From assembly GCF_030686865.1 (NCBI RefSeq), contig NZ_JAQYUS010000001.1, positions 62,001-126,000 on the forward strand: a stretch of DNA of 64,000 nucleotides, given 5' to 3'. This document shows, one piece after another, positions 34,920 through 54,213 of the stretch; within the stretch, counting starts at the first letter, position 1; every line of letters begins with the position of its first letter. Position numbers and translations under genes: made by a program. A model generated the notes under the pieces. It was not told the DNA's origin and did no database searches. It worked only from the letters and a program-made list of their open reading frames with translations. Source of the DNA: Kaistella sp. SH40-3. GTDB lineage: Bacteria > Bacteroidota > Bacteroidia > Flavobacteriales > Weeksellaceae.

Positions 34920-35423
34920 TTATCTTCTAAAATCCCAAGGTGCGACGGGATTTTTGTCTGTCCAAAGTCCTACTCTATTTCTCTTAGCGAAATTTTCTAA
35001 TTGAGCATACTCCTCATTTTTGGAATATTTTTTATAATGCCAGGCTAAACCAGATTTCAGCATTTCCTTGTTCACGTTCGTTTTTTCATTTACAAAAACC
35101 TCAGCGATCATTCGACCTCGGCCATCATAATTCCCTTTTTTACCAGTGCTGACAATGGTAACGTTTTTACCAAAACATAAGTCTGAGAGTTTTTGTTTTG
35201 AAACCGTCCCAAACGCTTGTTTCTTTTCTGGCGCATCAATATGTTCAAGCCGAATTACAATGGGAAGTTGATAGTATAGAACCTCAATGGTATCGCCGTC
35301 TTTTACCCCAATAACTTTCACTTTTAAAACAAGTTGATTGGTTTGTTTAGAAGTTTGCAAAGAAGCGGTTGTAAATTGATTTCCGAAAAAGAAAAGGAGA
35401 ATAAAGATGATAAGTTTTCGCAT
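34920..35423 (-). CDS. Secreted thermonuclease-like (SNase) protein
   Basis: The 167-residue protein has a signal peptide (MRKLIIFILLFFFGNQFTTA) and a staphylococcal nuclease domain: VIGVKDGDTIEVLYY, RLEHIDAPEKKQAFG with the catalytic Arg/Asp, and YDGRGRMIAEVFV with the second Arg. Such enzymes hydrolyse DNA or RNA with Ca2+ outside the cytoplasm. The ending EYAQLENFAKRNRVGLW is also typical. A role in nutrient scavenging or in attacking extracellular DNA is plausible. Confidence 0.9.
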   Translation of the reverse strand: MRKLIIFILLFFFGNQFTTASLQTSKQTNQLVLKVKVIGVKDGDTIEVLYYQLPIVIRLEHIDAPEKKQAFGTVSKQKLSDLCFGKNVTIVSTGKKGNYDGRGRMIAEVFVNEKTNVNKEMLKSGLAWHYKKYSKNEEYAQLENFAKRNRVGLWTDKNPVAPWDFRR

Positions 35424-35755
35424 GAAGGTATTGGAACTATTTTGTGTGCTGAAGATAGGTATTAAAATTTACCAAATGTTACTTCTTTACATTTAATTAT
35501 TAAAGTGTGAATTACAGATATGTCGGTGTTTTTTTATTGTATGTAGGAATACTTTAACAGCAAGATCAAAATAATTCCCCTTATGGAATCGGCTTTTTAA
35601 TGTTTTTTTATCTCCTAATTGATTGCTAATCTGATGGGTTAAATCACCCTATTTTAAACTACAAGCACTAAAATTCTTTTTTAATTGCAATCTCTTGTGT
35701 AGTTTTGTGAAAGAATTAATCTTTAAAAAGTTTAATTCTAAACACAAACACAATT
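35424..35755. other. Intergenic region upstream of the exported-protein block
   Basis: 332 nt, AT-rich, no ORF of note. TAGTTTTG at 35700-35707 fits the -7 consensus and would transcribe the following gene with a leader of about 45-90 nt. Confidence 0.45.
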
Positions 35756-36388
35756 TTGAAAAAAGATTTATTTTTGGTAAGAAATTTACCGAAAAGAAGG
35801 ATGACTTCTATATCATCTTTATTTTCGGTGTTTTTTGTTTTATTATTTTCATCACTTTCCTTTGCAACTACTTTATCAAAGACAGATAGTGTCACAACAA
35901 AGCAAACTGCGGTAATTTACGTTTTAGGAAATACGATAATTAAAGGTGAAAGTAGTTTTTCTAACGCCAACATTATCACTGTAAAAATTGTAGAAAAGAA
36001 ATCTTCTAATACAAAACAAAATACAGTAGAAAAAAAAGAAGATCAATCAATCTCTGCGCAAATCAGTAAAAAAGAAAAAGAAGAAAAAGAAAAAGAAAAA
36101 TTAGCAAAAATTCAAAAGCAGGTTAAAGAAAAACCTACCACTTTTCTTTCACAAAATCAAACTTCTTCAGATTTCAATAATACTAATTTTCAAAATGGAA
36201 GTATTGCAGTTGCAAGCAACAATTCTTACTCTCCATTTAAATTCTTAAAAGTCTTTTTGCAAAAAAACAAAGCACCTGTTCTTTGCGAAGACAAGAAAAA
36301 CAAACAAAAATTCTACACTACTCTTTCTTATTTACATTTCGGTAAATATAGAAGTTCTTCTTTGCGGGCACCGCCTGCATTCGTTTAA
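35756..36388 (+). CDS. Exported protein of unknown function, Lys/Glu-rich
   Basis: The frame is open from a TTG at 35756 (210 residues). An ATG at 35801 (MTSISSLFSVFFVLLFSSLS) places a signal peptide at the N-terminus and may be the true start, whereas the TTG form has a charged n-region. The middle is a highly charged stretch (KKEKEEKEKEKLAKIQKQVK) predicted to be a helix or disordered, and the end is basic. No known domain is recognised. It heads a row of four exported-protein genes. Confidence 0.6.
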   Translation: MKKDLFLVRNLPKRRMTSISSLFSVFFVLLFSSLSFATTLSKTDSVTTKQTAVIYVLGNTIIKGESSFSNANIITVKIVEKKSSNTKQNTVEKKEDQSISAQISKKEKEEKEKEKLAKIQKQVKEKPTTFLSQNQTSSDFNNTNFQNGSIAVASNNSYSPFKFLKVFLQKNKAPVLCEDKKNKQKFYTTLSYLHFGKYRSSSLRAPPAFV

Positions 36389-36606
36389 GATTTTATTTTG
36401 ACTTTCAATATTTATTATTGAAATCATTCCTACATAATTTCTTTTTTTCTATAATCTCCATTTAAAATTTAATCAACGATTCTATTTTTTAAGACTAAAC
36501 TCTGCATTTTTTCATTTTAAATGTCAATTGAGTTGTTATAATTAAAGATTGGAATTATCATTTTAATAAAAATCAAAAAAAATTACATAATAAAAAAAAC
36601 ACTAAG

Positions 36607-37158
36607 ATGAAAAAATTAAAAGTACACCTGTTTTTTGGCCTTAGTCTTTTCTTTGGCGCATCATTGCATGCACAAAAGAAAATACAAGACCTTAATGCAT
36701 TACTAGATCCGTCGGGGGGTAAAACAAACTTCTCTAAATCTGCTCTGAAAAACAACCCTGAACAATCTACCAACCCTGAACTACTCAAAGAAACCTTTTT
36801 TGATGCTCACGGTATGATTGCTGTTATGAATGGGAAAGACGCAGTAAAATGGGACAGAGTAGACAAACCCGTTCAAGATATGGATTTAAAATCTGTATCG
36901 GAAATACCAACGCTAAAAGCGGCCTATCCTGCTCAGATCTATTTGATTCGTACAATTAGAATTACTTATAGCAATAATATAGATCTTGTGGCAGAATTAG
37001 CCGCTGACATGCCCAATTTGCAAAATATACTGATAACTTCTTATAAAGAAATGCCTGAGGATATCGATGAAAACCTTGAAACTTTTCTTTCCAAATTGAA
37101 ACAAAGCCAGATCAATCCGGTGAATGTATATTATTATCAAGAAGCTGAACCACAATAA
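36607..37158 (+). CDS. Secreted protein of unknown function
   Basis: The 183-residue protein has a clear signal peptide (MKKLKVHLFFGLSLFFGASLHAQ). The mature part mixes short helices and strands (QIYLIRTIRITYSNNIDLVA) with no recognised domain. It ends 10 nt before the ATG of the large surface protein gene (37169), so the two are probably cotranscribed and may work together. No cysteine is present in the mature part. Confidence 0.7.
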   Translation: MKKLKVHLFFGLSLFFGASLHAQKKIQDLNALLDPSGGKTNFSKSALKNNPEQSTNPELLKETFFDAHGMIAVMNGKDAVKWDRVDKPVQDMDLKSVSEIPTLKAAYPAQIYLIRTIRITYSNNIDLVAELAADMPNLQNILITSYKEMPEDIDENLETFLSKLKQSQINPVNVYYYQEAEPQ

Positions 37159-37168
37159 AACTGAAATC

Positions 37169-39898
37169 ATGAAAAAAAATAATCAATATTTTGTTAACAT
37201 AACCGGTATTCTTGCAATGGCTTTATTGCTGTTAAGTGCCGGATGGTATAGCGTGTCTGCACAATCCGTCGTTCCATTTAATCCAAGAGCATCCACGCCT
37301 GCCAGCTCAACTGGAACATACAACATCAAAGGAGATTTCCAGATGCTTGGAAATTCTAATTTGGTTGCTGCTAATGACCTTACTGGAAGTAGTACTTCAC
37401 AGTCCAATGCTACAAACATGGTATATGTTAATGTAGAACCAGCGACGGGGATCGTAAATTCTTCTTCGGCTACTTTACAATTTCCAAACATATCTGGGGT
37501 TGATCCCGCTTGTAGCGAGATTGTTTACGCCGGTTTATACTGGTCCGGAAGGGCAGATAATGGTGGAAATGCTTCCAATACTTTTTCAGTGACAAGCGGA
37601 GCAGCCGCCACTTACAATACCAATGTCACCACTGGAAATTCAAGCAATGGTTATAATTTAACGATTGCAACTGCTGATGACTCTAGCAATGGTGGGAATA
37701 ATGGAACCTTGACTACTTACACTTTCACGCCACAAGCTAGTGGTGATGCCGTGGTATTTCGTTTTTATACTTGGCGTACTACTACTAATAATAATAGTTA
37801 CACAAATAAAGTAACCGTTCAGGTTGGCACTGGTACTGTACAAACCTTATCTGGAACAGCATCAAATAATACTAATTATTCTGTAACGCTAAGCACACCT
37901 TACGCATTACCAATAGGGACTGGCTTAGTTACTGTCTTACAAAAAGTAAGAGGTAGTGGGCAAAGTGTGAGCAATAGTTTCTATGCTACCGTAAATACGC
38001 CTGCAGTTGCAGGTACAACTGCTAATTTGGATAAAGCAAAAGTTAAATTCAAATTTGCAGGCGATACCTACCAGGATATTCCAGCATTAGGTGGAACAGC
38101 GATTAATTATCCACCAACTAACTACGGTCAAATGTATGCGGGCTACGCGGATGTAACGGCTTATGTCAAAGCCCATGGGGCAGGAAACTATACCGTAGCC
38201 AATATCGCACTGAGAGAGGGAAACGGTGGAGACACCGGATACTATGGCAGTTGGGGGCTTGTTGTGGTCTATAAAAACCCTTTTATGGTAGATAAAAGTA
38301 TCACCGTATTCGATGGCTATGGTTATATGGCGAGCGGTGGAGGTACACAAACTTTAAATGTAAGTGGTTTTTCAACTCCACCATCTGGCGCAGTTAATGC
38401 TACCATTGGTGTGATGGGTGGAGAAGGTGATCTTAGTATTGCAGGTGACCCGTTTTCTATTCAACAAAAAAACACAACAACCTATCGGTATTTAGATCAT
38501 AACGGAAATAGTACCACGTCCACACCGACTGGGGCTTACAACAACTTTTTTGATTCCAGTATCACAATTGCAGGAAATCCACCAAGAAACCCTAATCATA
38601 TGAATAACTATGGATCAGATATTCATATGTTAAATTTGGTTAATGCCAGTAACTCGATTATTGGCAACAGTCAGACTTCTACAAGTTTTCAATATGGTTC
38701 TTCTCAGGATACTTATATTATCTATAGCATTGCCTTTTCAGTAGACAACTACGTGCCGCAGCCAACGTCATCTATTTCGGCAAGTTCTATCGTAAATGGT
38801 AGTACTGTTAATGCGGGGGATAACTTTACTGTAGATTATGATATTACCAATCCTGGAAATGAGGCAGTGATCAACTCGAAACTTACAATTCCAATTCCTT
38901 TCAATCAAGAGTATGTTTCCAGTTCAGTAAATAGTTGGGATGTTTCATTACTTGGTCCACAAGTCAGCCCGGTATTTACACCAGCAGCACCGGGACAAGT
39001 AACGGGCGGAACGCTTACGTGGAATTTAGGAACCTTACCTTTAATGAGTGCTGCGGATAAAAACAGAGTAATGGCCAGCCTGCAAGCACAATTCCGGATC
39101 ACAACCAATTGTTTATTGCTAACTGCGCCTACATGTAGTGGAGTTACGGAACAAAATGCATACATGACGGGAACAGGTCAAGTATCTGGTCAGACTGTAC
39201 AGCTTCCTACAATTACTGGAAGCACTACTACCTCAGGCGGTTGTACCGTTCCTAGTACAAATCCTTTCAGTTTTGCTTTGAATATTGATTCTTCTACCCT
39301 AAATTGTCCGTCAAATATTATAACTGATCCTAATGATCCTACCCATAAGATCGTGACATATAACGCCGGAGCAAGTACAATACCACGTGCAACGGTAGCT
39401 AATGACTTTCCTGCTGGAACGATTTTCTACACAAAATCTCCATCTGACCCTACTTTTAATGCAATAACTGATGTGTTTACAGGAGATTTCAATGCGCCAG
39501 CAAATGGTTCGGATCCAGCTATTCGATACTATGCCGTGGCGCCAAATATGCCTGCTAACTGTTACTTCATTATCTCAATTTCTAGAGGATTATGTTACAA
39601 TTTACCAGCTGGTGGAACTGGTACAGATACCAAGCATGGTATTACTTTGTTGCAAAGAGCCGGAGCCAGCCCAGCGTCGCTAGATAACTGGCCAATGGTG
39701 AGAAAATCTGCACACACTGTGTTAGAATCGAATACCAAAGGATTTGTAATTTCCAGAATGACAACAAACCAGATTAATCAAATAAAAACTGATAATCATG
39801 CAGTAGAAGGAATGATGGTTTATGATACAGACTTAAAATGTTTGAAATTATACGATGGTACAAATTGGTCTTGTTTCAACAAACCAGCATGTCCGTAA
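37169..39898 (+). CDS. Large secreted surface protein with DUF11-like region
   Basis: About 909 residues. After the signal peptide comes a Ser/Thr/Asn/Gly-rich beta-structured region with the pattern CSEIVYAGLYWSGR and YADVTAYVKAHGAGNYTVAN, then GSWGLVVVYKNP...DKSITVFDG. This layout is typical of the N-terminal part of large Bacteroidota proteins carrying DUF11-type repeats. A DUF11-like stretch is near residues 535-600 (FTVDYDITNPGNEAVINSKL). The last 60 residues (TKGFVISRMTTNQI, GMMVYDTDLKCLKLYDGT) form a separate module also found in the next gene. No T9SS C-terminal signal is seen. The earlier in-frame codon at 37124 overlaps the preceding gene, so 37169 is used. Confidence 0.8.
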   Translation: MKKNNQYFVNITGILAMALLLLSAGWYSVSAQSVVPFNPRASTPASSTGTYNIKGDFQMLGNSNLVAANDLTGSSTSQSNATNMVYVNVEPATGIVNSSSATLQFPNISGVDPACSEIVYAGLYWSGRADNGGNASNTFSVTSGAAATYNTNVTTGNSSNGYNLTIATADDSSNGGNNGTLTTYTFTPQASGDAVVFRFYTWRTTTNNNSYTNKVTVQVGTGTVQTLSGTASNNTNYSVTLSTPYALPIGTGLVTVLQKVRGSGQSVSNSFYATVNTPAVAGTTANLDKAKVKFKFAGDTYQDIPALGGTAINYPPTNYGQMYAGYADVTAYVKAHGAGNYTVANIALREGNGGDTGYYGSWGLVVVYKNPFMVDKSITVFDGYGYMASGGGTQTLNVSGFSTPPSGAVNATIGVMGGEGDLSIAGDPFSIQQKNTTTYRYLDHNGNSTTSTPTGAYNNFFDSSITIAGNPPRNPNHMNNYGSDIHMLNLVNASNSIIGNSQTSTSFQYGSSQDTYIIYSIAFSVDNYVPQPTSSISASSIVNGSTVNAGDNFTVDYDITNPGNEAVINSKLTIPIPFNQEYVSSSVNSWDVSLLGPQVSPVFTPAAPGQVTGGTLTWNLGTLPLMSAADKNRVMASLQAQFRITTNCLLLTAPTCSGVTEQNAYMTGTGQVSGQTVQLPTITGSTTTSGGCTVPSTNPFSFALNIDSSTLNCPSNIITDPNDPTHKIVTYNAGASTIPRATVANDFPAGTIFYTKSPSDPTFNAITDVFTGDFNAPANGSDPAIRYYAVAPNMPANCYFIISISRGLCYNLPAGGTGTDTKHGITLLQRAGASPASLDNWPMVRKSAHTVLESNTKGFVISRMTTNQINQIKTDNHAVEGMMVYDTDLKCLKLYDGTNWSCFNKPACP

Positions 39899-39909
39899 AT
39901 TAATACAGT

Positions 39910-39936
39910 CCGAAAGTGATAAGTTGTCACTTTCGG
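39910..39936 (+). terminator. Hairpin after the surface protein gene
   Basis: CCGAAAGTGA pairs exactly with TCACTTTCGG. The downstream T-run is weak, so read-through into the next gene is likely. Confidence 0.65.
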
Positions 39937-39966
39937 GTTATTTAACTTTAATTAAATATAAAAGAA

Positions 39967-40548
39967 ATGAAAAAAATATTTTCAATATTAACTTTATCAA
40001 TTATCGTGGGTTTAAATGCCCAAGTAGTAATTGGCGGAGCAACTGGATCAGCAGGATCTAATACAACTTCTGTATTATTAGACTTTGTCACAGGACAAAA
40101 CAAAGGAATCATCGTTCCTTATGTACGAGTAATGCCTGTAGCAGGAAATGCCCGCACAGAAGGAACCATCTTATTAGATGCAACTGATCCTACCAAAGCA
40201 AGAATGAAATTTTATAATGGCAACACTTTACCGTTAACCAATGGTTGGGTAGATTTAAGTGGCCAAGACGCCAATCTTACATTGCCTACAAATTACATGG
40301 CGTCGCAACCGACCATATTGCAAGCACCAGAATCCGCTACATCTAAAGCGATTATCGGCGCACAATCTAGTAGTGCAGATGGGGTTTTGGTTTTGGAATC
40401 TTCCAATAAAGCGATGGTATTACCTATCGTTGCAGATGTGCAAAATATCCTGAGTCCTTCGCCGGGAATGATGGTTTACGTTAATAAAACTGGCGCAAAA
40501 AGACTGGCCGTTTTCAATGGTAGTAAATGGTCTTTCTGGGCACCCTAA
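39967..40548 (+). CDS. Secreted protein with two copies of the surface-protein tail module
   Basis: 193 residues with a signal peptide (MKKIFSILTLSIIVGLNAQ). The mature part contains two similar modules: NKGIIVPYVRVMPV...EGTILLDA...MKFYNG...GWVDLSG, and NKAMVLPIVADVQN...PGMMVYVN...LAVFNGSKWSFW. These match the C-terminal end of the large protein encoded just upstream. Function is unknown. The similarity suggests a common receptor, anchor or assembly partner. Confidence 0.75.
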   Translation: MKKIFSILTLSIIVGLNAQVVIGGATGSAGSNTTSVLLDFVTGQNKGIIVPYVRVMPVAGNARTEGTILLDATDPTKARMKFYNGNTLPLTNGWVDLSGQDANLTLPTNYMASQPTILQAPESATSKAIIGAQSSSADGVLVLESSNKAMVLPIVADVQNILSPSPGMMVYVNKTGAKRLAVFNGSKWSFWAP

Positions 40549-40568
40549 AATCAAACACTCAATAATTG

Positions 40569-40598
40569 AAGTCACTTCGAAAGGAGTGACTTTTTTAT
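40569..40598 (+). terminator. Terminator of the exported-protein block
   Basis: AAGTCACTTC, a GAAA loop, and GGAGTGACTT are followed by T residues. The opposing gene at 40624 begins its stop just beyond. Confidence 0.9.
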
Positions 40599-52033: not shown

Positions 52034-52399
52034 TTATTTCAATTCTACTTCAGCACCAGCTTCTTCTAATTGTTTTTTCAACGCTTCAGCTTCGTCTTTA
52101 GAGATTCCTTCTTTGATTGCAGTCGGAGCTCCGTCTACCATATCTTTCGCTTCTTTAAGACCTGCACCAGTTAAATCCTTAACTAATTTTACAACTGCTA
52201 ATTTTGAAGCACCTGCTGCTTTCAAGATTACGTCGAATTCAGTTTTTTCTTCTACTGCTTCGCCAGCACCTGCAACAGCAGCTACAGCTACAGCAGCTGG
52301 TTCGATTCCGTACTCATCCTTAAGGATAGTAGCTAATTCATTTACGTCTTTAACGGTTAAGTTTACAAGCGTTTCCGCTAAGTTTTTTAAATCTGACAT
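52034..52399 (-). CDS. rplL: Ribosomal protein bL12 (L7/L12)
   Basis: 121 residues: helical dimerisation domain, Ala-rich hinge ([17 protein letters not shown]) and the C-terminal factor-binding domain [20 protein letters not shown]. It forms the stalk that recruits translation factors. It is the last gene of the rplKAJL operon. In most bacteria rpoB follows it, but here a terminator and a convergent operon do. Confidence 0.97.
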
Positions 52400-52452
52400 T
52401 TTAATAATGTTTTAATTGTTGAACGATTTATTTGATTTTTTTTTGAGTCTAA

Positions 52453-53052
52453 TTACTCTGCACTAGGTGCATTGGTAGCGTCAGCACTTGCTTCTGGAGC
52501 AACTTCTGCTGCTGGGGTTTCTGCCTGAACTTCTTCCGCAACAGGAGCAGCCTCTTCAGCATCTCCGTTTGCTTCATCTTTGTTCTGTAATGCAGAAAGA
52601 ACATTTCTAAGTGGAGATTGAAGTAATGTGATGATTTCACCAATCATTTCTTCTCTAGACTTGATGCTAACTAAAGTAGCTAAGTTTTCGTCGCCTACGT
52701 AGAAAGTTTCTTGTAAATAAGCAGATTTCAAAGCTGGAATTTCTGCTTTTTTTCTGAATCCTTGAATCAACTTTGCCGGAGCATTTGCTGTTTCAGAAAT
52801 CATAATAGCAGAGTTACCTTTGAAAGTTGGGAACATTTCAGAGTAATCTACTCCTTCGATTTGTTCCAATGCTTTTTGTAGTAAAGTGTTTTTTACAACT
52901 TTTACAGTGATATTTTGTTTAAATGCTTGTCTTCTAAAATCTGAAGTCGCAGCAGCATTCATTCCTTCTAGACTTGCTACATAAACCACTTTCGCGTCTT
53001 GTAACACTTCTTTTAATTCTTGTATTACTAATACTTTATCTTCTTTTGTCAT
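52453..53052 (-). CDS. rplJ: Ribosomal protein uL10 with a long C-terminal tail
   Basis: The conserved uL10 body covers about residues 1-150 (TKEDKVLVIQELKEVLQDAK at the start, then LEGMNAAATSDFRRQAF). It is followed by a tail of about 40 residues rich in Ala, Glu and Pro (DAEEAAPVAEEVQAETPAAE). uL10 proteins are usually about 165-175 residues, so 199 is long. The tail is probably disordered. uL10 anchors the bL12 dimers on the ribosome. Confidence 0.95.
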   Translation of the reverse strand: MTKEDKVLVIQELKEVLQDAKVVYVASLEGMNAAATSDFRRQAFKQNITVKVVKNTLLQKALEQIEGVDYSEMFPTFKGNSAIMISETANAPAKLIQGFRKKAEIPALKSAYLQETFYVGDENLATLVSIKSREEMIGEIITLLQSPLRNVLSALQNKDEANGDAEEAAPVAEEVQAETPAAEVAPEASADATNAPSAE

Positions 53053-53065
53053 TGTCTTTCAGATT

Positions 53066-53758
53066 TTAGTTTACAGATTTAGTATCAATTGCAATACCTG
53101 GACTCATAGTAGAAGACAAATAAATGCTTCTTACATAAACACCTTTAGACGCTGTTGGTTTCAATTTGATTAATGTCTGAATTAATTCAGAAGCATTTTC
53201 TCTAATTTGAGCAGGGTCAAAAGACACTTTACCAATTCCAGCGTGGATGATTCCGTATTTATCAACTTTAAAATCAATTTTACCTGATTTTACTTCAGAT
53301 ACTGCTTTACCGATATCCATCGTTACAGTTCCTGATTTAGGATTTGGCATTAAACCTCTTGGACCTAAAATTCTACCCAATGGACCTAATTTACCCATAA
53401 CAGCCGGCATGGTAACGATCACGTCAACATCAGTCCAACCATCTTTAATTTTCTGTAAATATTCATCAAGACCTACATAATCAGCACCAGCTTCTTTCGC
53501 TTCTGCTTCTTTATCTGGAGTTACCAAGGCCAATACTTTTACATCTTTACCAGTTCCGTGTGGAAGAGATACAACACCTCTTACCATTTGGTTCGCTTTT
53601 CTAGGATCAACTCCTAATCTAACTGCGATATCAACAGATGCATCAAATTTTGCAAAGTTTACTTCTTTTACCAAAGCCGAAGCTTCTTCAAGAGAATAAA
53701 TTTTGTTTTTTTCTATTTTGCTTAAAGCTTCTTTTTGCTTTTTAGTTAATTTTGCCAT
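53066..53758 (-). CDS. rplA: Ribosomal protein uL1
   Basis: 230 residues with the uL1 signature ([17 protein letters not shown]) and [20 protein letters not shown]. uL1 forms the L1 stalk and, in many bacteria, represses its own operon by binding its mRNA. It lies 13 nt upstream of rplJ and 11 nt after rplK. Confidence 0.97.
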
Positions 53759-53769
53759 ATCTATAAGTT

Positions 53770-54213
53770 TTAAGCGTTAGTTGGTTTAGTTCCTGTTACT
53801 CTCAATCCCATAGATCTTGCAGTTCCGGCAACCATAGTAAGGGCACCATCCATCGTAAAACAATTAAGATCTACCATTTTATCCTCAGCAATTTTACTAA
53901 CTTGAGCCCAAGATACAGCACCTACTTTCAGTCTGTTTGGCTCTCCTGAACCTTTTTTCTGCTTAGATGCTTCTAAAAGTTGGATTGCCACAGGTGGAGT
54001 TTTAATTACGAATTCAAATGATTTGTCTTCGTACACTGTAATTACTACAGGTAAAACTTGTCCTGGCTTGTCTTGAGTTCTTCCGTTAAATTGCTTACAA
54101 AACTCCATAATGTTCACCCCTGCAGAACCTAATGCAGGACCTACTGGTGGAGATGGGTTTGCTGCTCCTCCTTTTACTTGGAGCTTCACCATTTTAAAGA
54201 CTTTTTTAGCCAT
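53770..54213 (-). CDS. rplK: Ribosomal protein uL11
   Basis: 147 residues with the start [35 protein letters not shown] and the RNA-binding C-terminal part ending [15 protein letters not shown]. It is the first gene of the rplKAJL operon, with its own promoter at 54310-54339. Confidence 0.97.

Follow-up and report, generated by a model that had tools for sequence, protein, structure and literature searches.

What is the function of a run of four genes whose products all look exported and match no protein family? The block lies on the plus strand of a 64,000-nucleotide stretch of the Kaistella sp. SH40-3 genome (the window), which also holds rpoB and rpoC. The preliminary description had read the four products as one functional unit on the cell surface, such as an appendage, adhesin or coat. 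For gene 3, a role as an adhesin or fibre remains plausible, but for gene 1 a structural role is not supported, since its anatomy is that of a regulatory arrest peptide. We consider it likely that the block is a surface-protein cassette under a predicted ribosome-arrest leader, with a putatively Rho-gated gap behind the leader and a gene 3/gene 4 pair as its output.

Organization and recurrence of the four-gene block

The features to which the text refers are as follows.

35700..35707, plus strand: promoter-like TAnnTTTG element, TAGTTTTG, 48 nt before gene 1
35756..36388, plus strand: gene 1, predicted leader, 210 aa, TTG start
35915..35989, plus strand: IYVLGNTIIKGESSFSNANIITVKI, the sole further conserved stretch in the leader family (from the alignment, positioned from the translation)
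36365..36376, plus strand: codons of the predicted arrest motif R204-A205-P206-P207, followed by Ala-Phe-Val and the stop
36389..36606, plus strand: gap of 218 nt from leader to gene 2, without TAnnTTTG, 25 C versus 14 G
36607..37158, plus strand: gene 2, exported protein of 183 aa (ORF translation)
37169..39898, plus strand: gene 3, large exported surface protein of 909 aa (ORF translation)
39572..39898, plus strand: C-terminal module of gene 3, residues 802-909 (profile matches and alignment)
39907..39939, plus strand: terminator-like hairpin of 15 pairs in the interval between genes 3 and 4
39967..40548, plus strand: gene 4, exported protein of 193 aa with the module pattern twice, putative partner of the gene-3 tail
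40568..40593, plus strand: terminator-like hairpin 3' of the block

The four ORFs, their positions and the 10-nt spacing between genes 2 and 3 agree with the preliminary description; the mechanically called ORF of gene 3 opens earlier, at 37124. All four translations begin with a basic-hydrophobic, signal-like N-terminus, as had been claimed, and the claimed lack of known enzyme domains is borne out by searches of Pfam and NCBIfam, which gave sub-threshold matches or none for all four proteins. PHROGs returned nothing useful for genes 2-4. A strong terminator had been placed at the end of the block, and a hairpin is indeed found there (40568-40593), but a longer one already stands behind gene 3, and cotranscription of gene 4 with the rest may therefore be incomplete. 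The G+C content of the block (0.32-0.40) is inside the range of the window.

We found a full-length gene-3 core in 3 of 296 genomes of the family, namely SH40-3, G170 (88% identity) and G067 (53%); the search scored no more than three candidates in any genome, and thus distant relatives of the core may be missed. A contig scan with the whole of gene 3 recovered no relative, whereas a scan with its tail module recovered 45 loci. Each of the three genomes carries the four genes in this one order, which answers the co-occurrence check proposed for the block. In G170 (locus L055) the block sits between rplL and a TIGR03915/TIGR03916 pair, ahead of rpoB, and in G067 (locus L056) it sits behind a metal-ATPase gene. 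These sites, in two genera, are unrelated, and the block is thus a unit that is rare and not bound to one place. A mobile element was considered, and no mobility gene was seen beside the block in the ORF lists of these two loci. The earlier view of the block as one surface-related unit is upheld by this co-occurrence, and by the family-wide recurrence of the tail module together with gene 4.

The surroundings of the block differ between the window and G170, the one genome compared. Relative to G170, the window shows an inversion that takes in gene 1 through rpoC (noted at ~35.4-35.7 and 51.5-52.0 kb). The genes rplL-rplJ-rplA-rplK (52034-54213) lie there on the minus strand, towards rpoBC, and a nuclease-like gene (34920-35423) adjoins gene 1, while its homologue in G170 sits behind rpoC. 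In G170, rplKAJL, the block and rpoBC all run in one direction, and the inversion in the window disrupts the usual rplL-rpoB order. Across loci, rplL lies just before a module cassette at 13 distinct places after removal of two duplicates (L055, L060, L061, L062, L065, L075, L080, L084, L085, L089, L143, L159 and L183), and in 12 of these a leader is the next cassette gene. The rplL-rpoB interval seems to be a favoured site for module cassettes.

A leader family with a near-invariant C-terminal motif

The preliminary description had missed that gene 1 ends in RAPP (residues 204-207 of 210; C-terminus FGKYRSSSLRAPPAFV, …SSSLRAPPAFV), a kind of motif that its relatives carry far beyond chance. 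In an alignment of 30 leaders, gene 1 comprises a signal-like N-terminus, an IYV motif, a Lys/Glu-rich linker and the C-terminal RAPP. Many different preceding sequences permit stalling at RAPP and RGPP, the C-terminal motif of known ribosome arrest peptides; proteomes avoid both, and small upstream ORFs (uORFs) for exported peptides that bear them lie ahead of sec, TonB-receptor, metal and Dsb genes, while E. coli screens have yielded RxPP with x being G, A, S or P (PMC12992588). Like ApdA, ApdP, ApcA and the RAPP/RGPP uORFs (PMC12992588; PMC10987492, the latter on Sec/YidC-related arrest peptides), gene 1 is shorter than 300 aa and bears a localization signal. The best explanation for gene 1 is a leader with a signal peptide and, at its end, a predicted RAPP translation-arrest motif. 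Between the window and G170 it is only 34% identical, as against 88, 87 and 70% for genes 2, 3 and 4.

In the ORFs of 109 loci, R[AGS]PP occurred 36 times in 428,198 residues, and with overlapping loci counted repeatedly it was C-terminal in 33 of 2,944 closed ORFs, where ~2.5 were expected. We then considered the cassettes defined by the gene-3 module. Of 61 distinct module ORFs, 49 had enough upstream sequence to be counted, and in 28 of them a same-strand upstream ORF ended in R[AGP]PP (17 R[AG]PP and 11 RPPP), a count that is partly post hoc because the motif class was widened from R[AGS]PP once RPPP had been seen in further upstream ORFs. The upstream ORF of one more cassette ended in RAPG. 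The antisense control yielded 0 of 49, and swapping the Arg of the motif for other residues yielded 0 or 1 of 49. The remaining 20 cassettes, several of which are second or later in tandem arrays, lacked such an ORF; among them is the second cassette of the SH40-3 genome.

The upstream ORFs form a single, strongly diverged family with a signal-like N-terminus, the stretch IYVxxGAxVxG, a Lys/Glu-rich linker and unlike C-termini that share the motif, whose flanking residues are not conserved among the 30 aligned leaders. Because these leaders had been chosen by their motif, we built a model that omitted the last 45 residues, which makes the test on held-out relatives independent of the motif. 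This model used 25 of the 35 RxPP ORFs (30 were aligned); the more divergent or longer leaders, and those of L083, L097 and L101, were kept out by choice. In an initial check, for which the columns of the C-terminal tail were stripped from the alignment, four non-training closed ORFs scored E < 0.001, of which three carried the motif and the fourth was the leader of L083, which is apparently broken and seems to be split across two frames. The final model matched 90 of 286 family genomes (11 of 33 genera), and 11 of 246 genomes of the order, all 11 within the same family. Gene 1 was recovered too, being one of the training rows.

The 60 held-out relatives were distant matches at other loci in the family genomes, taken from the matches listed by rising E value (4.9e-13 to 5.4e-7); two were passed over, G143:C1 because its locus had already supplied an RxPP ORF and G101:C67 because a stop interrupts it. 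Part of this set comes from genomes that also supplied training loci, at other places. All 60 were closed ORFs, and 56 had R[AGP]PP no more than 28 residues from the stop; the four exceptions comprised one VKPPP, one TRPPT and two short ORFs (118 and 161 aa). A module or gene-4 homologue lay within the fetched stretch for 40 of the 60. Behind the other 20, most ORFs are long, begin with a signal-like segment and often extend past the fetched stretch; some of them resemble fibre proteins with a coiled tail. At L145, L154, L160 and L188, the first ORF behind the leader is a shorter one in which no export signal is evident. A hydropathy window detected an N-terminal hydrophobic stretch in 32/32 training and 55/60 held-out leaders. 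These results demonstrate a leader family that is defined without its C-terminus, keeps a near-invariant C-terminal motif and stands before surface-protein genes.

Statistics on motif, spelling, folding and gaps were drawn from 88 leaders (i.e., without L083, L097 and L101). The motif is RPPP in 61, RAPP in 16 and RGPP in 11, and is followed by 2-9 residues in 85 of the 88. It is written in 68 distinct 12-nt spellings that use all six Arg codons, and no internal copy was found in any of the 88 leaders. As in the RAPP/RGPP uORFs described in PMC12992588, the motif sits a few residues from the C-terminus, is preceded by variable sequence and is encoded ahead of presumed targets. Unlike in those uORFs, whose targets are sec, metal or Dsb genes, the leaders stand before surface-protein cassettes, RPPP predominates among the motif forms, no Pfam or NCBIfam family was found for gene 1, and arrest is predicted here.

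A different small exported ORF, unrelated to the leader family, was seen at L097 (10274-10633, minus strand). It encodes 118 aa with several His and Cys residues, ends in LRGPPAIS and, judged by look, is perhaps a metal-sensing arrest leader.

The gap between leader and cassette

The element TAnnTTTG, the flavobacterial -7 promoter consensus, was found 66 times upstream of 87 leaders, where mononucleotide shuffles gave 24.1, and once in the leader-to-gene gaps, where 10.9 were expected (87 of the 88 leaders used). Enrichment upstream together with depletion in the gap fits one transcript for leader and cassette. A strict intrinsic-terminator pattern was found in 0 of 85 gaps. C exceeded G in 68 of 80 gaps, as against 27 of 80 stretches upstream of the leader (Wilcoxon p 9e-10), and did so in 22 of 46 intervals between a module gene and the next gene. 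Gap lengths span 12 to 798 nt.

These properties can be set beside CruR of Bordetella pertussis, where RAPP stands three residues from the end, arrest is required for operon expression, and release leads to Rho-dependent termination (PMC9426467). Gene 1 resembles CruR in the position of its RAPP, in being the first gene of a putative operon and in having a presumed cell-envelope target. Control in CruR is thought to sit in the gap, with arrest meaning on and Rho acting upon release (PMC9426467). Unlike CruR, which senses copper through a CxxC, gene 1 has a single Cys and no CxxC in its translation, Pfam detected no DUF2946 (the CxxC copper sensor) in it, and a role of Rho is a prediction. A gap that, judged by these simple patterns, lacks promoters and intrinsic terminators and has a C-over-G skew would suit a CruR-like Rho-dependent switch, and the gap at 36389..36606 is the predicted site of such control.

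Several other explanations of the leader deserve consideration. The leader might stall while RNA structure does the controlling, in the manner of SecM-secA (i.e., the ribosome opens a hairpin that hides the next start, and Rho plays no part). In 62 leaders with gaps of up to 260 nt, the leader end plus gap folded more stably than dinucleotide shuffles (mean z -1.52, 21/62 below -2; z -3.05 in the window), as this explanation would predict, but control stretches upstream of or at the leader start were also negative (mean z -0.97, 8/42 below -2), so that gap folding is only modestly above this control; coding sequence gave mean z -0.26, with 2/42 below -2. The wide range of gap lengths also speaks against a control by structure, and the C-over-G skew is better explained by Rho. 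We therefore regard it as unlikely.

Alternatively, RxPP could be a sorting, cleavage or assembly signal of small exported surface proteins, in which case gene 1 would belong structurally to the surface unit. Bacteria do have sorting motifs at protein C-termini, and the leaders bear export signals and the conserved IYV stretch. The conserved letters are nevertheless those of ribosome arrest, in which R is irreplaceable and is followed by A/G/P-P-P (PMC12992588), while the surroundings of the motif are not conserved, the 2-9 residues left after it hold no membrane segment, and the loss of promoters and the C skew in the gap point to regulation. Together, these data make a sorting signal very improbable. 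That the genes are ordinary accessory surface-protein genes, with RAPP a functionless inherited oddity, would agree with their export signals and patchy distribution, both ordinary for surface proteins. Retention of the motif in 56 of 60 held-out leaders while the rest diverged, its 68 spellings and its excess at C-termini strongly disfavour this explanation, to which we give hardly any credence.

The tail module, gene 4 and a proposed working

The last 108 residues of gene 3 (the module) matched 249 of 292 family genomes (26 of 33 genera), as against 90 of 286 for the leader. Gene 4 matched 243 of 292 (25 of 33 genera); because the module and gene 4 are related, some of these matches may be to each other. 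The gene-3-tail and gene-4 profiles match each other's families, and in the gene-4 alignment the module pattern occurs twice, in keeping with the earlier claim that the last two proteins share a tail. Among 60 distinct module genes (window plus L055-L109), the module ends no more than three residues from the C-terminus in 59, and a gene-4 homologue follows directly in 55 of 59 testable cases. In loci fetched by the leader (L140-L199), gene 4 follows the module gene in 27 of 28 testable cases, and the module ends within three residues of the C-terminus in 22 of 32. The SH40-3 genome carries a second module/gene-4 pair on contig 3. On the 71.6-kb contig 17 of G030 (L058, L059 and L143), module genes stand in a tandem array, each with a gene-4 copy, and nine gene-4 copies are among the matches listed.

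One explanation for this pairing, which concerns genes 3 and 4 and is compatible with an arrest leader governing the block, is that gene 3 is a type IX secretion system (T9SS) substrate with an undescribed C-terminal signal and that gene 4 acts as PorP/SprF does for type B substrates. The module is strictly C-terminal, it occurs on many large exported proteins of this Bacteroidota family, and a partner gene lies directly behind; type B substrates are likewise often linked to PorP/SprF genes (PMC12618676, PMC10202324). The likeness to a type B C-terminal domain with its PorP/SprF partner (PMC9143113, PMC12618676, PMC10202324) thus extends to a C-terminal module, large surface proteins and an adjacent partner gene. 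Unlike in type B systems, Pfam and NCBIfam gave no family for gene 3 at E up to 1, hence no type A or B domain (TIGR04183/PF18962 and TIGR04131/PF13585), and no PorP/SprF match for gene 4, which is instead akin to the module. We consider this explanation possible and lean somewhat against it.

Structural and distant sequence comparisons gave limited hints. The best relatives of gene 3 in a plasmid collection were Thermus plasmid proteins with the annotation DUF11 domain-containing; they align in two pieces that cover 44% of the query at 33% identity (E 8e-25) and match 37169-38935, approximately residues 1-589. The AlphaFold model of gene 3 had a mean pLDDT of 45 and was left unused, while that of gene 4 (mean pLDDT 73) consisted of small beta strands. 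In Foldseek, the top weak matches of gene 4 were phage fibre-like and tailspike proteins, the best at E 2.9e-3 in the viral library and 1.4 in the PDB, with no match at E 0.001 or better. The likeness to such proteins lies in short beta-hairpin modules, and the gene-4 fold matches are too weak for a claim. A PDB sequence search gave three matches for the gene-4 profile (E 0.12 or worse) and none for gene 3; gene 4 had no sequence match among 50,697 phage records, and its match in PHROGs was phrog_2803 at E 0.007. Gene 2 was found in SH40-3 and G067 among 120 genomes, a sample that does not include G170, and its ORF is also present in L055; it was seen only alongside this 909-aa type of gene 3.

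From these results, we infer the following working for the block. The nascent R-A-P-P C-terminus of the exported gene-1 leader would stall its own ribosome. Transcription starting at the leader's promoter would extend through genes 2 and 3 and, at least in part, into gene 4, with the stalled ribosome shielding the start of the C-rich untranslated gap so that RNA polymerase continues. Once the export machinery pulls the leader in or through, the stall would be released, the ribosome would leave, and Rho would halt transcription in the gap. Release by export coupled to a Rho stop would make the cassette responsive to how export or the assembly of the envelope is proceeding. Gene 4 is probably a docking or assembly partner of the gene-3 C-terminal module, and gene 2 may be an extra that belongs to this type of surface protein.

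The sign of the control (i.e., that a stall means on) is taken by analogy from CruR and is the least certain step. Some findings count against the arrest-leader reading. RPPP is the majority form, and Pro at the x position retained only part of ApdA and ApdP arrest (PMC12992588). Replacing the export signal of CruR left its regulation unchanged (PMC9426467), and this lowers the case for export as the general trigger of release. The leaderless cassettes (20 of 49), the hairpin that splits gene 3 from gene 4 and the modest folding of the gap weigh on the same side. In a bolder version, which we think rather unlikely, the cassettes would be alternative surface-fibre sets, many headed by a dedicated stall leader that senses how surface proteins are exported or assembled in the outer membrane (not Sec capacity) and gates synthesis of very large adhesins, cassette by cassette, by envelope state, and the module and gene 4 would form a new surface-pairing system.

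Leaders of the RAPP type are already known as a kind, whereas this family, its class of targets and its RPPP majority appear to be new. The survey in PMC12992588 omitted downstream genes annotated as unknown, so that surface cassettes of this type could escape it, and the discussion in that paper asks how RAPP peptides regulate beyond protein localization and where the pulling force comes from. In the open-licence literature, we found neither the leader family with its surface-protein targets nor any paper joining an arrest peptide with Chryseobacterium or translation arrest with type IX secretion.

For these questions, the family offers dozens of divergent natural leaders whose target is clear. 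Arrest peptides have been known chiefly for monitoring metals and the secretion machinery, and a large leader family before surface-protein genes would mean that the same stall controls cell-surface display. The tail module together with gene 4 also gives access to what appears to be an undescribed route for displaying proteins at the surface.
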